NCBI RefSeq assembly: GCF_009811795.1
Contig: NZ_BLJE01000001.1
Location: forward strand, 372,001-436,000
Length of the DNA: 64,000 nucleotides
Direction: 5' to 3'
Origin: Litoreibacter roseus
GTDB taxonomy: Bacteria > Pseudomonadota > Alphaproteobacteria > Rhodobacterales > Rhodobacteraceae
The position numbers were made by a program, and so were the translations under genes. The notes under the pieces were generated by a model, which saw nothing but the letters and a program-made list of their open reading frames with translations, was not told the origin of the DNA and made no database searches. Positions 9,415-56,759 of this stretch are shown one piece after another. Each line of letters begins with the position of its first letter. Positions within the stretch are counted from its first letter, which is position 1.

Positions 9415-9993
9415 TCACGGAACGTGATTAATCTTCCCGAGATGCCATTGATGTCCGTCCCAACTCATTTCTGTGACAGACAGGTTATCTATCCCGTGTC
9501 CCAAGCAGTCATAGGGCGGCAATCCCCCGGCTCGTCCAACCTGGGTCAGAATCGCACCGAAATGCGCGACCGCAATAATATTCTGTCCGGCGTAACTCTC
9601 GTTCATACGATCGACTTCCGGTTCTATCCGCCTTGCTGCGTCGTACCAGCTTTCGCCATTCGGCGCTTTGATTTCGCCGGGATCTTCCCAATAGGCGCGG
9701 CTGAGTTCCGGATCACGCCGGGACACGTCGTCAAAGGTCAAACCATCCCAGTCGCCGAAGTGAAACTCCCGAAACGCCTGTAAGTGATCAAGGCGCGTTC
9801 TGCCCTTTTCGAGGGCGTCCGCCGTCTGTACCGCGCGTCGCAAATCTGATGAGACAATGACCGCCTGACTTGGCAGATACGCATTCAGGCGCAAGATTGT
9901 ATCTTCGTCTGACAGATCGGCGGGTACGTCACGCCATCCGCAGAACGCCTTTTCATGCGTCGGGCCGTGACGCACCCACCACCAGCGGGTCAA
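9415..9993 (-). CDS. histidine phosphatase family protein, possible alpha-ribazole phosphatase
   Basis: A 192-residue member of the histidine phosphatase (phosphoglycerate-mutase-like) superfamily. The catalytic RHG motif is at residues 8-10, Arg and Glu pocket residues follow (SSDLRRAVQTA, FREFHFGDWDGLT) and the second histidine is in VAHFGAIL. The ATG overlaps the cobU stop by four bases (ATGA), so it is co-translated with a cobalamin gene; this makes a CobC-like alpha-ribazole-5'-phosphate phosphatase the best guess. The family is too broad to fix the substrate from sequence alone. Confidence 0.85.
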   Translation of the reverse strand: MTRWWWVRHGPTHEKAFCGWRDVPADLSDEDTILRLNAYLPSQAVIVSSDLRRAVQTADALEKGRTRLDHLQAFREFHFGDWDGLTFDDVSRRDPELSRAYWEDPGEIKAPNGESWYDAARRIEPEVDRMNESYAGQNIIAVAHFGAILTQVGRAGGLPPYDCLGHGIDNLSVTEMSWDGHQWHLGKINHVP

Positions 9994-10517
9994 AGGGGAC
10001 TGCCTTTTAACACCTGCGGAAGCCCCGCGATCACCTGCACAACTCTATCCGCTTGCGCCGCCAGCTTGATATTGAATCGCCCCTGGATCGCCCTAAATTC
10101 ACGCCCCAGTTTTGAAGATGGAACAATTCCGCCCCCAACTTCGTTGCACACTAAAGTGACAGGGTTTTGGGTTGATGTGAGGGTGGTCAGTAATTCTTCT
10201 ACTGCACCTTCAATATCGGCTCCCGCGAGAAGAAGGTTTGACAGCCACAATGTCGTGCAATCAATCAGGACAACGCCCCCTTCCGCGGCCTTTGAAACTG
10301 CGGCAGCAAGATCAATGTGTGCTTCAACAGTGGTCCAGTCATTGCCGGCGCGGGCAGCGCGATGCGCTTCGATCTTTGACGACATCTCCGGATCAAATGC
10401 TTGCGCCGTCGCTATGTACGTTCGGGGAGTTCCCTGAGCGATCACAATTTGCTCAGCAAAATCTGATTTGCCTGATGACGCCCCACCCAACACCATTGTC
10501 ACAAAACTTTTTTGCAC
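9990..10517 (-). CDS. cobU: bifunctional adenosylcobinamide kinase / adenosylcobinamide-phosphate guanylyltransferase
   Basis: Converts adenosylcobinamide to its GDP derivative in nucleotide-loop assembly of vitamin B12. The protein has 175 residues, the usual length. The P-loop GGASSGKS is at 11-18, and the guanylyl-acceptor region with a conserved His (KIEAHRAAR) and the EVGGGIVPSSKLGREFRA segment near 120-140 are intact. The start is GTG at 10517; a GTG and an ATG six to eight codons in are alternatives. The gene is coupled to the histidine phosphatase and transcribed divergently from rpoH2. No other cobalamin genes are in the window. Confidence 0.93.
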   Translation of the reverse strand: MQKSFVTMVLGGASSGKSDFAEQIVIAQGTPRTYIATAQAFDPEMSSKIEAHRAARAGNDWTTVEAHIDLAAAVSKAAEGGVVLIDCTTLWLSNLLLAGADIEGAVEELLTTLTSTQNPVTLVCNEVGGGIVPSSKLGREFRAIQGRFNIKLAAQADRVVQVIAGLPQVLKGSPL

Positions 10518-10624: not shown

Positions 10625-11503
10625 ATGGCATTAGACGCAAGATCCGACAATTCCCTGTCCCGCACCGCAATGAAGGCGGAGCTACTGGACGCGGAAACGG
10701 AGCTGCGACTTGCATATGCATGGCGTGATGAACGGGATGAAGCTGCCCTTCACCGTTTGATCACAGCTTATATGCGGCTCGCGATTTCAATGGCCGCAAA
10801 GTTCAAACGCTATGGCGCGCCAATGAACGATCTGATTCAGGAAGCTGGTCTGGGTTTGATGAAAGCGGCGGACAAGTTCGATCCGGACCGCGGTGTTCGC
10901 TTCTCAACTTACGCTGTTTGGTGGATCAAGGCATCGATTCAAGACTACGTGATGCGGAATTGGTCTATGGTTCGCACCGGCTCCACCTCTTCGCAAAAAT
11001 CATTGTTCTTCAATATGCGCCGCGTTCAGGCCCGTTTGGAGCGGGAGGCTGCAGCGCGGGGTGAGAGCTTGGACAAGCACCAGTTGCGCCAGATGATTTC
11101 CACAGAGGTCGGTGTTTCGATGCGCGACGTCGAGATGATGGAAGGGCGCCTTGCGGGATCCGACTACTCCCTGAACGCGACCCAGTCGACTGAGGATGAA
11201 GGGCGCGAGTGGATTGATGCGCTCGAGGATGATGGCGAGCAGGCTGCGGAGATCGTGGAAAACAGCCATGATACCGACTGTCTGCGGAACTGGCTGGTCA
11301 AGGCCATGACAGGTCTGAACGAGCGCGAGCAGTTCATCGTTCGCGAACGCAAGCTTTTGGACCAACCTCGCACGCTTGAAAGTCTCGGCAATGAGCTTGG
11401 TCTCAGCAAAGAACGTGTGCGCCAGTTGGAAGCCGCAGCGTTTGCCAAGATGCGCCGTGCCCTCGAAAGCCAATCCAAAGAGGTCCAGCATTTCCTCGCA
11501 TAA
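10625..11503 (+). CDS. rpoH2: alternative sigma factor RpoH2 (RpoHII type)
   Basis: A 292-residue sigma-32 family factor. Region 2 lies at about 45-112 (DLIQEAGLGLMKA, RGVRFSTYAVWWIKA), the RpoH box (SQKSLFFNMRR) at about 123-133, and a region 4 helix-turn-helix (LESLGNELGLSKERVRQLE) near 255-275. The sequence closely resembles the RpoHII proteins of Rhodobacter rather than the main heat-shock RpoH; in R. sphaeroides RpoHII drives the singlet-oxygen and general oxidative response downstream of RpoE. The ATG has a GGGAG site eight bases upstream, and a candidate RpoE promoter precedes it. The hsp20 gene in this window could be a target. Confidence 0.93.
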   Translation: MALDARSDNSLSRTAMKAELLDAETELRLAYAWRDERDEAALHRLITAYMRLAISMAAKFKRYGAPMNDLIQEAGLGLMKAADKFDPDRGVRFSTYAVWWIKASIQDYVMRNWSMVRTGSTSSQKSLFFNMRRVQARLEREAAARGESLDKHQLRQMISTEVGVSMRDVEMMEGRLAGSDYSLNATQSTEDEGREWIDALEDDGEQAAEIVENSHDTDCLRNWLVKAMTGLNEREQFIVRERKLLDQPRTLESLGNELGLSKERVRQLEAAAFAKMRRALESQSKEVQHFLA

Positions 11504-54031: not shown

Positions 54032-54140
54032 GGGTATGTCCTGCTCAATCTTCTTCTGCGGCATGGCATTTCTTGCCTTGCTCCTTTGGCGCTTATCTTT
54101 GCATCATGGTTCACGAAATTCCACAAAAGGATGGTCTGAC

Positions 54141-55127
54141 ATGCCGCGTGAGAAACTCAGTGTTGTCGTGACGCGACGCTTGCCGGAAGTGGTCGAGACC
54201 CGCATGAGCGAATTGTTCGAGGTAAACCTCAGAACCGCCGATGCGCCTATGACCCGTGCGCAACTCGTTGAGGCAGTGAAGTCCGCCGATGTTCTGGTGC
54301 CCACCCTGACGGATGAGATTGACGCGGGCTTGATCGGGCAGGCGGGCGATCGCTTGAAGCTGATCGCCAATTATGGGGCTGGCGTGGACCATATCGACGT
54401 GGCGACCGCCCGCCAGCGGGGCATTTTGGTGTCGAACACCCCCGGCACGGTGACCGATGACACTGCCGACATGACCCTTGCCCTGATCCTTGCCGTGACC
54501 CGGCGTATTCCCGAAGGGTTAAACCTGATGCAATCGGGGGACTGGGATGGGTTTTCCCCCACGGCCCTGATGGGGGGCCGCATCTCTGGCCGCCGTCTGG
54601 GCATTCTGGGGATGGGACGGATCGGGCAGGCCGTCGCCCACCGCGCCCGTGCCTTTGGAATGCAGATTCACTACCACAACCGGACCCGCGTGCATGAGGC
54701 GACGTCGGAAGAACTTGAGGCGACCTATTGGGAGAGCCTTGACCAAATGCTGGCCCGGATGGATGTGGTCTCGGTCAACTGTCCGTCGACGCCCTCGACC
54801 TATCACCTTTTGAACGCCCGTCGCCTCAAGCTGATGAAGCCGACCGCGGTGGTTGTGAACACATCCCGCGGCGATGTGGTCGATGAGAATGCCCTGACCC
54901 GGATGCTGCGCGCGGGCGAGTTGGCGGGGGCGGGTCTCGACGTGTTCGAACATGGCCCCCAGATCAATCCGCGCCTGCGGGAACTGCAGAACGTTGTCCT
55001 CCTGCCTCATATGGGGTCAGCAACGGAAGAAGGGCGCGTCGAAATGGGCGAAAAGGTCCTGTTGAACATCAAAACCTTTGCGGACGGTCATCGCCCACCG
55101 GATCAGGTTGTGCCGGGCATGCTCTGA
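54141..55127 (+). CDS. 2-hydroxyacid dehydrogenase (glyoxylate/hydroxypyruvate reductase-like)
   Basis: A 328-residue NAD(P)-dependent enzyme. Rossmann motif [16 protein letters not shown] near 155; catalytic Arg ([10 protein letters not shown]), Glu (DVFEHGP) and His (LLPHMGSA) are intact. The ATG at 54141 has AAAGGA nine bases upstream. A paralogue is at 16949-17899. It is divergent from the SH3 gene, a pairing I have seen in other Rhodobacterales. Role in one-carbon or glycine metabolism is inferred. Confidence 0.9.
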   Translation: MPREKLSVVVTRRLPEVVETRMSELFEVNLRTADAPMTRAQLVEAVKSADVLVPTLTDEIDAGLIGQAGDRLKLIANYGAGVDHIDVATARQRGILVSNTPGTVTDDTADMTLALILAVTRRIPEGLNLMQSGDWDGFSPTALMGGRISGRRLGILGMGRIGQAVAHRARAFGMQIHYHNRTRVHEATSEELEATYWESLDQMLARMDVVSVNCPSTPSTYHLLNARRLKLMKPTAVVVNTSRGDVVDENALTRMLRAGELAGAGLDVFEHGPQINPRLRELQNVVLLPHMGSATEEGRVEMGEKVLLNIKTFADGHRPPDQVVPGML

Positions 55128-55135
55128 CTTTTCGT

Positions 55136-55160
55136 GGAACATTGATTGCCGGGGCACGTT
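55136..55160 (+). promoter_or_regulatory. EcfG-type general stress promoter match before csbD
   Basis: GGAAC (55136-55140), exactly 16 bases, then CGTT (55157-55160), matching the alphaproteobacterial EcfG consensus GGAAC-N16/17-CGTT. It is 37 bases upstream of csbD, with the GAGGAG site between. CsbD proteins are classic stress-regulon members, which strengthens the call. Whether this organism encodes EcfG cannot be seen here. Confidence 0.6.
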
Positions 55161-55196
55161 GTTTGTCCAGACAGTCATTAACCGAGGAGCGATGCG

Positions 55197-55394
55197 ATGA
55201 ATTGGGATCAAGTCCAAGGAAACTGGAAAGAATGGAAAGGCAAAGCCCAGTCGAAATGGGGTGAGCTGACGAATGATGAGCTGGATCAGGCCGAAGGTGA
55301 CCGTGAGCAGTTGGAAGGTCTCATTCAGCAGAAATACGGCAAGACGAAAGAACAGGCTCGCGCGGAAGTCGACAGTTGGATGTCGGGGAGCTGA
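55197..55394 (+). CDS. CsbD family general stress protein
   Basis: A 65-residue soluble protein with the CsbD signature MNWDQVQGNWKEWKGKAQSKWG and DQAEGDREQLEGLIQQKYG. Highly charged and helical, expected to be abundant in stress; biochemical role unknown. The ATG has GAGGAG seven bases upstream. Followed after three bases by the PNPOx-like gene. Confidence 0.95.
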   Translation: MNWDQVQGNWKEWKGKAQSKWGELTNDELDQAEGDREQLEGLIQQKYGKTKEQARAEVDSWMSGS

Positions 55395-55397
55395 GCG

Positions 55398-55907
55398 ATG
55401 GCAGACACTGATCTCACCAAGGAAGACGCAACCAAGCAACTGTTCGATCAACTCGATGATCTGCGCGCAGGCATGCTTGGCATCGAAGGGTCGGGCCAGC
55501 ATATGCAGCCAATGACCCACTACTTTGATCGCGAAACCCAGGAGCTTTGGTTCATCACCTCACGCGACACCGATTTGGTGCGTGCCGTGGGGCAAGGCAA
55601 CACGGCTCACTTCACGATCCAAAGTACCGATCAGGACTACTATTCCTGTATGAGCGGTCCGATTACGCAAAGCAGTGACGAGGCCAAACTGGACGAAATC
55701 TGGTCCGCCGTTGCCGCCGCGTGGTTTGAGAACGGTCGCGAGGATGCAGACGTCACTTTGCTGCATATGCCGCTGCGTGAAGCCGCGGTCTGGGCGTCGT
55801 CCGGTAATCCGCTGGTTTTCGGTCTGGAGATTTTGCGCGCAAATATGTCGAGTGATACCGCCGACGTGGGTGAGCATCGCGTGATCAATTTCGCGACAGC
55901 CGCCTGA
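55398..55907 (+). CDS. pyridoxamine 5'-phosphate oxidase-like (general stress protein 26 type) flavoprotein
   Basis: A 169-residue split-barrel FMN-binding protein of the general stress 26 group. Typical parts: QLDDLRAGMLGIEG, MTHYFDRETQELWFITSRDTDLVRAVGQG, and EDADVTLLHMPLREAAVW. It likely binds FMN or F420-like cofactor and scavenges reactive species; substrate unknown. Operon with csbD and shared stress promoter. Followed by a bidirectional terminator. Confidence 0.9.
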   Translation: MADTDLTKEDATKQLFDQLDDLRAGMLGIEGSGQHMQPMTHYFDRETQELWFITSRDTDLVRAVGQGNTAHFTIQSTDQDYYSCMSGPITQSSDEAKLDEIWSAVAAAWFENGREDADVTLLHMPLREAAVWASSGNPLVFGLEILRANMSSDTADVGEHRVINFATAA

Positions 55908-55925
55908 GCCACATCAAATACAGAG

Positions 55926-55954
55926 AAAGCCCCGGATGGTCCGGGGCTTTTTTT
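55926..55954. terminator. bidirectional intrinsic terminator
   Basis: AAAGCCCCGGA (55926-55936), loop TGG, then TCCGGGGCTTTTTTT. The 8-bp GC stem flanked by A and T tracts serves both the stress operon and the convergent lytic transglycosylase, whose stop codon lies at its edge. Confidence 0.9.
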
Positions 55955-56759
55955 ATCCGTCGATCTGCTTGGCCATGATCGCGATGGCCTTTTGATAAAC
56001 CCCTGCCGCGTTCCACTGCTGGATCACTGCGAAATTCGGCTGCCCTTCCTGATAACCGACGCCCGGACGCCAGCCCTTCTGGCTGAGAAAGTTCGCCGTC
56101 GACGCCAACGCGTCGCCCATACTGTTCAGATCGAGACGCCCGTCGCCATTCCCATCAATCCCGTATTTCAATACGTTGCCGGGCAGAAATTGCGTGTGAC
56201 CCAGTTCCCCGTGCTTGGCCCCGATTGAATTGGGTGAGATCACACCTTGATCCACCAGCTTCAAGGCAGCCAGAGTGTGTCCCGTGAAAAAGTCCGAGCG
56301 TCTGCAATCATAAGCCAGTGTCGAGATCGCGGACAGCACGTTGCTGTCCCCCATGAAATTTCCAAAGCCCGTTTCCATCCCGTGGATCGCGATGATCACC
56401 CCCGCGGGAACCCCGAATTTCCGCTCCAGCGAGTCGAAGAACGCGGCATTGCGGGCTTTGCGTTTGCGACCTTGGGCCACAATGGTCTGCGCGCCGCGCA
56501 CCTGCATGAATTTCTCGAGGGAATACTTGAAGCTTTTCTGGTTACGGTCAGCAGCGATCGTTCGCTTGGCATATTGCGTTCCTGCCAGCGCCTGCAGCCC
56601 CCGCTTGCCGACACCAGCCTGCGCAGCTTCATTGGCAAACGCCGCTTTCCATGCGTTGAACCCCCCCGCAGAATTGCCACACGCTGCAGCCAACGCGGCA
56701 CCAGGAAGAACCAAAGCCACGGCAGCCGCCGCAAGCGCACGTCTTGAAAACAATCGCAT
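55953..56759 (-). CDS. lytic murein transglycosylase (MltB/SLT_2 family)
   Basis: A 268-residue exported peptidoglycan-cleaving enzyme. Signal peptide residues 1-24 (ending ALA); no lipobox, unlike E. coli MltB. The catalytic glutamate is in HGMETGFGNFMG near 127, and GHTQFLPGNVLKYGIDGNGDGRLDL is the family's substrate-groove segment. The ATG at 56759 has GGAG upstream. Confidence 0.93.
   Translation of the reverse strand: MRLFSRRALAAAAVALVLPGAALAAACGNSAGGFNAWKAAFANEAAQAGVGKRGLQALAGTQYAKRTIAADRNQKSFKYSLEKFMQVRGAQTIVAQGRKRKARNAAFFDSLERKFGVPAGVIIAIHGMETGFGNFMGDSNVLSAISTLAYDCRRSDFFTGHTLAALKLVDQGVISPNSIGAKHGELGHTQFLPGNVLKYGIDGNGDGRLDLNSMGDALASTANFLSQKGWRPGVGYQEGQPNFAVIQQWNAAGVYQKAIAIMAKQIDG

Follow-up and report, generated by a model that had tools for sequence, protein, structure and literature searches.

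A predicted promoter of the EcfG type, GGAAC-N16-CGTT, lies at positions 55136-55160 on the plus strand of the window, the 64,000-nt stretch of DNA of the marine bacterium Litoreibacter roseus analysed here. We conclude with high confidence that this element is the promoter of the csbD–PNPOx operon and that it is read by EcfG, the sigma factor of the general stress response. As predicted from sequence, it is an ordinary EcfG promoter, and the assignment is well supported. The exact match that the original prediction had placed before csbD and PNPOx is present, and profile searches bear out the names given there to the two genes behind it.

The operon and its predicted promoter

The features around the element, in window coordinates, are:

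54129..55127, plus strand, 2-hydroxyacid dehydrogenase gene, upstream neighbour outside the operon (PF02826 and PF00389; ORF)
55136-55160, plus strand, predicted EcfG-type promoter, GGAAC-N16-CGTT (sequence and conservation)
55136-55140, plus strand, −35 box GGAAC (sequence)
55141-55156, plus strand, promoter spacer of 16 nt (sequence)
55157-55160, plus strand, −10 box CGTT (sequence)
55197..55394, plus strand, csbD, first gene of the operon, 65 aa (CsbD PF05532, 2.9e-20; ORF)
55398..55907, plus strand, gene for a PNPOx-like protein of the general stress protein 26 type, 169 aa (Pyrid_ox_like PF16242, 4e-39; ORF)
55922..55954, no strand assigned, terminator-like hairpin with A/T-rich flanks (fold −24.1 kcal/mol, z −4.68)

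The −35 box begins 9 bp past the last base of the dehydrogenase ORF (55127), and the csbD ATG (55197) stands 36 bp downstream of the −10 box. From the usual geometry of ECF promoters, transcription of csbD would be expected to start at roughly 55166-55169, upstream of a purine-rich, ribosome-binding-like stretch at ~55184-55189. Because only 3 bp separate csbD from the PNPOx gene, cotranscription is very probable, and the two genes very probably share one transcript. The hairpin sits between this operon and a convergent transglycosylase gene, and a consensus terminator scan reports it on the minus strand only. The dehydrogenase gene, whose start codon is uncertain (the longest ORF runs from 54030), is on the same strand as csbD and ends 69 bp before it.

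Conservation of the predicted promoter in relatives

A search with the PNPOx protein against the genomes of 84,980 species yielded 31 loci, the nearest relative coming from Litoreibacter (79% identity). One locus with 8 bp of upstream DNA (L053) was left out of the footprint, giving 30 testable loci. GGAAC precedes the first gene of the operon at all 30, and at each of them the −10 box, at N16 or N17, is CGTT, GGTT, TGTT or CATT, the exact CGTT being present at 21. Dinucleotide shuffles gave a mean of 0.047 loci with a site and a maximum of 1 over 300 rounds. At other spacings CGTT was found at no locus with spacers of 8-15, 18-21, 23, 24 or 26, and at one locus each with 22 and 25. The spacers themselves diverge widely among the 30 loci, and the element heads the operon irrespective of its first gene, which is csbD in 16 relatives and PNPOx in 14. 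Conservation in 30/30 testable relatives, against 0.047 in shuffles, thus argues that the csbD site is a real promoter rather than a chance match.

A second set, drawn from genomes of the family, has the site at 27 of 30 loci and the exact form at 24 of 30; it partly overlaps the first set and is not independent of it, since at least three genomes recur (the sites of L235, L236 and L237 are identical to those of L029, L037 and L033). The three second-set loci at which no site was found are L243 and L264, where upstream DNA is available, and L260, which has little of it.

The EcfG regulators in the same genome

The original prediction had left two options, that a PhyR–NepR–EcfG system exists here or that another ECF factor uses the same element. 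The evidence agrees with the former, as the genome that carries csbD has phyR, nepR, ecfG and a HisKA_2 kinase gene side by side (G000:C3 ~396.6-399.9 kb). In coordinates of this locus (L002), the genes are:

L002:8556-9368, minus strand, phyR (NF006623, 368 bits against a cut-off of 240)
L002:9490-9666, plus strand, nepR (NepR profile match, 1.1e-12, at G000:C3:397534-397629)
L002:9663-10220, plus strand, ecfG (NF009198, 329.6 bits, cut-off 270; NF009199, 231 bits, cut-off 219)
L002:10220-11947, plus strand, HisKA_2/HWE kinase gene (HisKA_2 2.8e-22, HWE_HK 3.1e-8)

phyR is thus divergent from the nepR–ecfG unit. Its product carries the PhyR_sigma2, PhyR_sigma-like and Response_reg domains, all above cut-off, and gives full-length alignments to PhyR-type chains of known structure, with 9by5 scoring highest (374.7 bits); EcfG aligns with the solved structure 5uxx (183.6 bits). 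NepR, at 18.9 of 100 bits, falls below the NCBIfam NepR equivalog cut-off, as does the kinase below that for PhyK (214.6 of 750 bits). Five sigma factors in the genome match the ecfG-class model NF009199, and the EcfG of this locus is the only one above cut-off. Further EcfG-type sites surround the cluster, as do genes for a ferritin-like protein of the Dps type, a DUF883 protein and an MscS channel.

The partner switch in which phosphorylated PhyR takes NepR and frees EcfG is established in other species (PMC8103513, available text). Carried over from other Alphaproteobacteria, as is the reading of the csbD site by the EcfG of L. roseus, the switch would run as follows. In unstressed cells NepR would sequester EcfG; under stress the HisKA_2 kinase would phosphorylate PhyR, which would then capture NepR and release EcfG. 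Free EcfG would recruit RNA polymerase to the GGAAC and CGTT boxes, leading to production of CsbD and the PNPOx-like protein.

Motif counts and genomic placement

The presence of the motif alone is not significant, as its counts in the window and in the genome are at control level. The window holds 2 exact GGAAC-N16/17-CGTT matches against 1.20 expected from shuffles; the genome holds 77, whereas the reversed pattern occurs 120 times and the two boxes set N12/13 apart, an incorrect spacing, occur 79 times. We therefore dropped the motif count as evidence. The second exact match in the window looks like chance:

10120-10145, exact match, antisense within the minus-strand ORF 9990-10517, which we take from its translation to be cobU-like

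About 480 bp past this match begins a plus-strand ORF (10625-11503) that we presume to encode an RpoH-like sigma factor.

Placement does distinguish the correctly spaced sites. Outside called genes and at most 250 bp before a start lie 21/77 of them, against 3/79 of those at the wrong spacing (Fisher p 3.8e-5), with genes called by a simple, crude codon-based caller that overlooked the window's cobU-like ORF; the count of 21 leaves out L093 and L123, which were called intragenic yet lie less than 120 bp from a start. Regardless of distance, 29/77 correctly spaced and 12/79 wrongly spaced sites fall outside called genes, figures that are approximate with this caller. A Pfam scan covered 14 of the 21 downstream proteins. 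The families found behind the sites include CsbD, PhyR, MscS and DUF883, and the ten further genes encode PLDc_N, PRC barrel, Fe/Mn SOD, formate/nitrite transporter, DUF4112, FMN reductase, OsmC, Hva1_TUDOR and DUF1206 proteins and one protein without a family. From these families it is plausible that the other genomic sites form a stress regulon, in line with the further promoters that the original prediction had proposed scanning for.

Other sources of csbD transcription

Another sigma factor, whether a further ECF factor or RpoH, might read the csbD site and leave EcfG little or no role. Many ECF factors favour −35 boxes that contain AAC, four more sigma factors hit the ecfG-class model with scores under its cut-off, the Sigma70_r4_2 profile has 20 matches in the genome, and the presumed RpoH-like ORF lies in the window itself. 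We nonetheless regard this explanation as unlikely, given that both boxes and their 16/17 spacing agree with the published EcfG type, as far as the available text of those reports goes, that phyR is preceded by the same element and nepR–ecfG by a form of it with a TGTT −10 box, that a single factor exceeds the ecfG-class cut-off, and that NepR was found in all 31 genomes of the first footprint set.

That the match is coincidental, with csbD transcripts arising at some other promoter or running in from the dehydrogenase gene, would agree with the chance-level motif counts and with the same-strand gene ending so close upstream. Set against the site in every testable relative and the scarcity of sites in shuffles, and with no sigma-70-like promoter found within 55000-56000, this explanation is extremely improbable, although read-through may make a minor addition to csbD transcription. 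Initiation by EcfG at 55136-55160 is the reading that we retain.

Presence and absence of the module in the family

The system had been described in the original prediction as not uniformly present in the group, and the family genomes agree: NepR has a match in 144/296 and is above cut-off in 143/296. We profiled 80 of the 152 NepR-less genomes and 80 of the 143 others that have a NepR match. A PNPOx relative was found in 0/80 NepR-less against 40/80 NepR-bearing genomes (Fisher 2.5e-15, phylogeny ignored); an empty search would be uninformative alone, but the identical query did match in the NepR-bearing set. The query drew a blank in the other half of the 80 NepR-bearing genomes, among them G182, which belongs to the same genus. 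The 0/80 against 40/80 contrast offers a ready natural comparison for asking which genes the pathway governs.

The link with NepR seen for PNPOx does not extend to csbD, since CsbD matches persist in 9/80 NepR-less genomes (8 above cut-off). GGAAC-N16/17-CGTT is absent from all 9 of these csbD loci; one of them (L265) has a single GGAAC-CATT variant, within a predicted coding region. Another NepR-less locus, L266, retains the dehydrogenase (80% identity), csbD (56%) and panB (81%), with no PNPOx match and no EcfG-type site in L266:1-3156. The small gene inserted in its csbD neighbourhood is presumably DUF1328-like.

Full-length PhyR was likewise missing from NepR-less genomes, with NF006623 above cut-off in 0/79 (positive control G032, 352.6); weak matches (E <= 0.001) in 78/80 genomes are other receivers and sigma factors. 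We rejected PF22233 as a PhyR marker in NepR-less genomes, where it matches in 62/80 and exceeds its cut-off in 35/80. These counts speak against PhyR being cleanly absent, but the matching frames are mostly ~200 aa long, which, read by length, suits ordinary ECF sigma factors. One NepR-less genome, G058, gives a partial NF006623 match of 197 bits, to the receiver part only; the frame (L285, G058:C20:32593-32952, 149 aa) is perhaps a PhyR remnant or a single-domain regulator.

The phyR–nepR–ecfG locus is on a plasmid in Dinoroseobacter shibae, Roseobacter litoralis, Gemmobacter, Ketogulonicigenium and Roseicitreum (L290, L291, L292, L293 and L298). Plasmid location is a possible route for its patchy spread.

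Predicted overlapping promoters between phyR and nepR

The intergenic region between phyR and nepR holds two EcfG-type sites on opposite strands, overlapping by 19 bp and together spanning L002:9417-9449 (C3 ~397416-397448 in the L. roseus genome):

L002:9417-9442, plus strand, site toward nepR–ecfG, GGAAC-N17-TGTT (sequence)
L002:9424-9449, minus strand, site toward phyR, GGAAC-N17-CGTT (sequence)

Among 30 relatives with divergent phyR and nepR–ecfG (L054-L083), sites on both strands occur in 26 and an overlapping pair (18-19 bp) in 25, the exceptions to overlap being L056, L070, L071, L075 and L083. The pairs in L. roseus and in these 25 relatives form near-palindromes of 32-33 bp. As controls, an overlapping opposite site accompanies 0/30 csbD/PNPOx promoters and 2/77 exact sites of the L. 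roseus genome, these 2 including the phyR site.

From 34 matching records we took 10, five from Rhodobacterales and five from others. The intergenic pair is present in 4/5 Rhodobacterales plasmid loci (Dinoroseobacter, Gemmobacter, Ketogulonicigenium and Roseicitreum); Roseobacter litoralis has a pair only within nepR, which was left uncounted. Outside the order, the sites stand apart without overlap in Sinorhizobium meliloti and Methylobacterium bullatum, S. meliloti having an additional loose overlapping match; the Sphingomonas locus has sites on one strand, and Shinella and Azospirillum have none.

EcfG promoters before both phyR and nepR–ecfG are already known (PMC8103513 and PMC4814048, available portions); we found no description of their overlap in a literature search largely confined to material outside subscription journals. 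Because the two sites overlap, polymerase binding in the phyR and nepR–ecfG directions should, judging from their arrangement, be exclusive. If active, the overlapping promoters provide a testable point on self-amplification of the switch.

We tentatively put forward, at somewhat under even confidence, a two-part proposal for Rhodobacterales: that the stress module is kept or lost together with its clients, PNPOx not being kept without NepR, and that one 32-33 bp near-palindrome (GGAACCAAACG-N-CGTTTGGTTCC) comprises two opposed, exclusive EcfG promoters. If true, the csbD–PNPOx operon would be fully EcfG-dependent, and the wiring would be specific to the order, each firing yielding either the releaser (PhyR) or the sigma/anti-sigma pair (nepR–ecfG).

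Comparison with known EcfG systems

The EcfG pathway is little studied in Rhodobacterales, and the phenotype reported for Rhodobacter sphaeroides is narrow. The phyR loci of R. sphaeroides and Rubellimicrobium thermophilum, from the same order, have the same regulator set as the one found here (PMC5830050, PMC12148442), and the csbD–PNPOx operon is not mentioned in the available portions of these two papers. According to the accessible text of PMC5830050, R. sphaeroides without PhyR has unchanged resistance to oxidative, heat and osmotic stress and is affected under membrane stress; PhyR is thus reported there chiefly for membrane stress. Since loss of PhyR left the first three resistances unchanged, the role of the pathway in Rhodobacterales may be narrower than a broad response to stress.

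The closest parallels for the operon itself come from other Alphaproteobacteria. In Sphingopyxis granuli TFA, csbD (SGRAN_3063) is a direct EcfG target, and in the ecfG1 ecfG2 mutant its expression stands at 0.00 of wild type, nearly silent (available portion of PMC7083833). Both SGRAN_3063 and the gene here belong to the CsbD family, EcfG control being drawn from expression data in Sphingopyxis and from sequence in L. roseus; a point of contrast with the SGRAN_3063 entry is that csbD here is followed by a PNPOx gene in one predicted operon. For that second gene, the EcfG-type promoter table of Sphingomonas melonis Fr1 lists a 'general stress protein 26' gene (PMC6599016, in the part available), likened to PNPOx by annotation and preceded there by a GCAAC −35 box.

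The −10 variants given for Sphingopyxis EcfG in the same portion of PMC7083833, CGTT, TGTT, CATT and GGTT, are those in the footprint here. As far as the available text of the published work goes, the csbD site resembles EcfG (ECF15) promoters of Alphaproteobacteria in its boxes, its N16/17 spacing, its −10 variants and its position upstream of a stress gene, with no difference in the site itself. The csbD–PNPOx operon can be placed, as a predicted member, among the EcfG-controlled genes of a lineage within Rhodobacterales.
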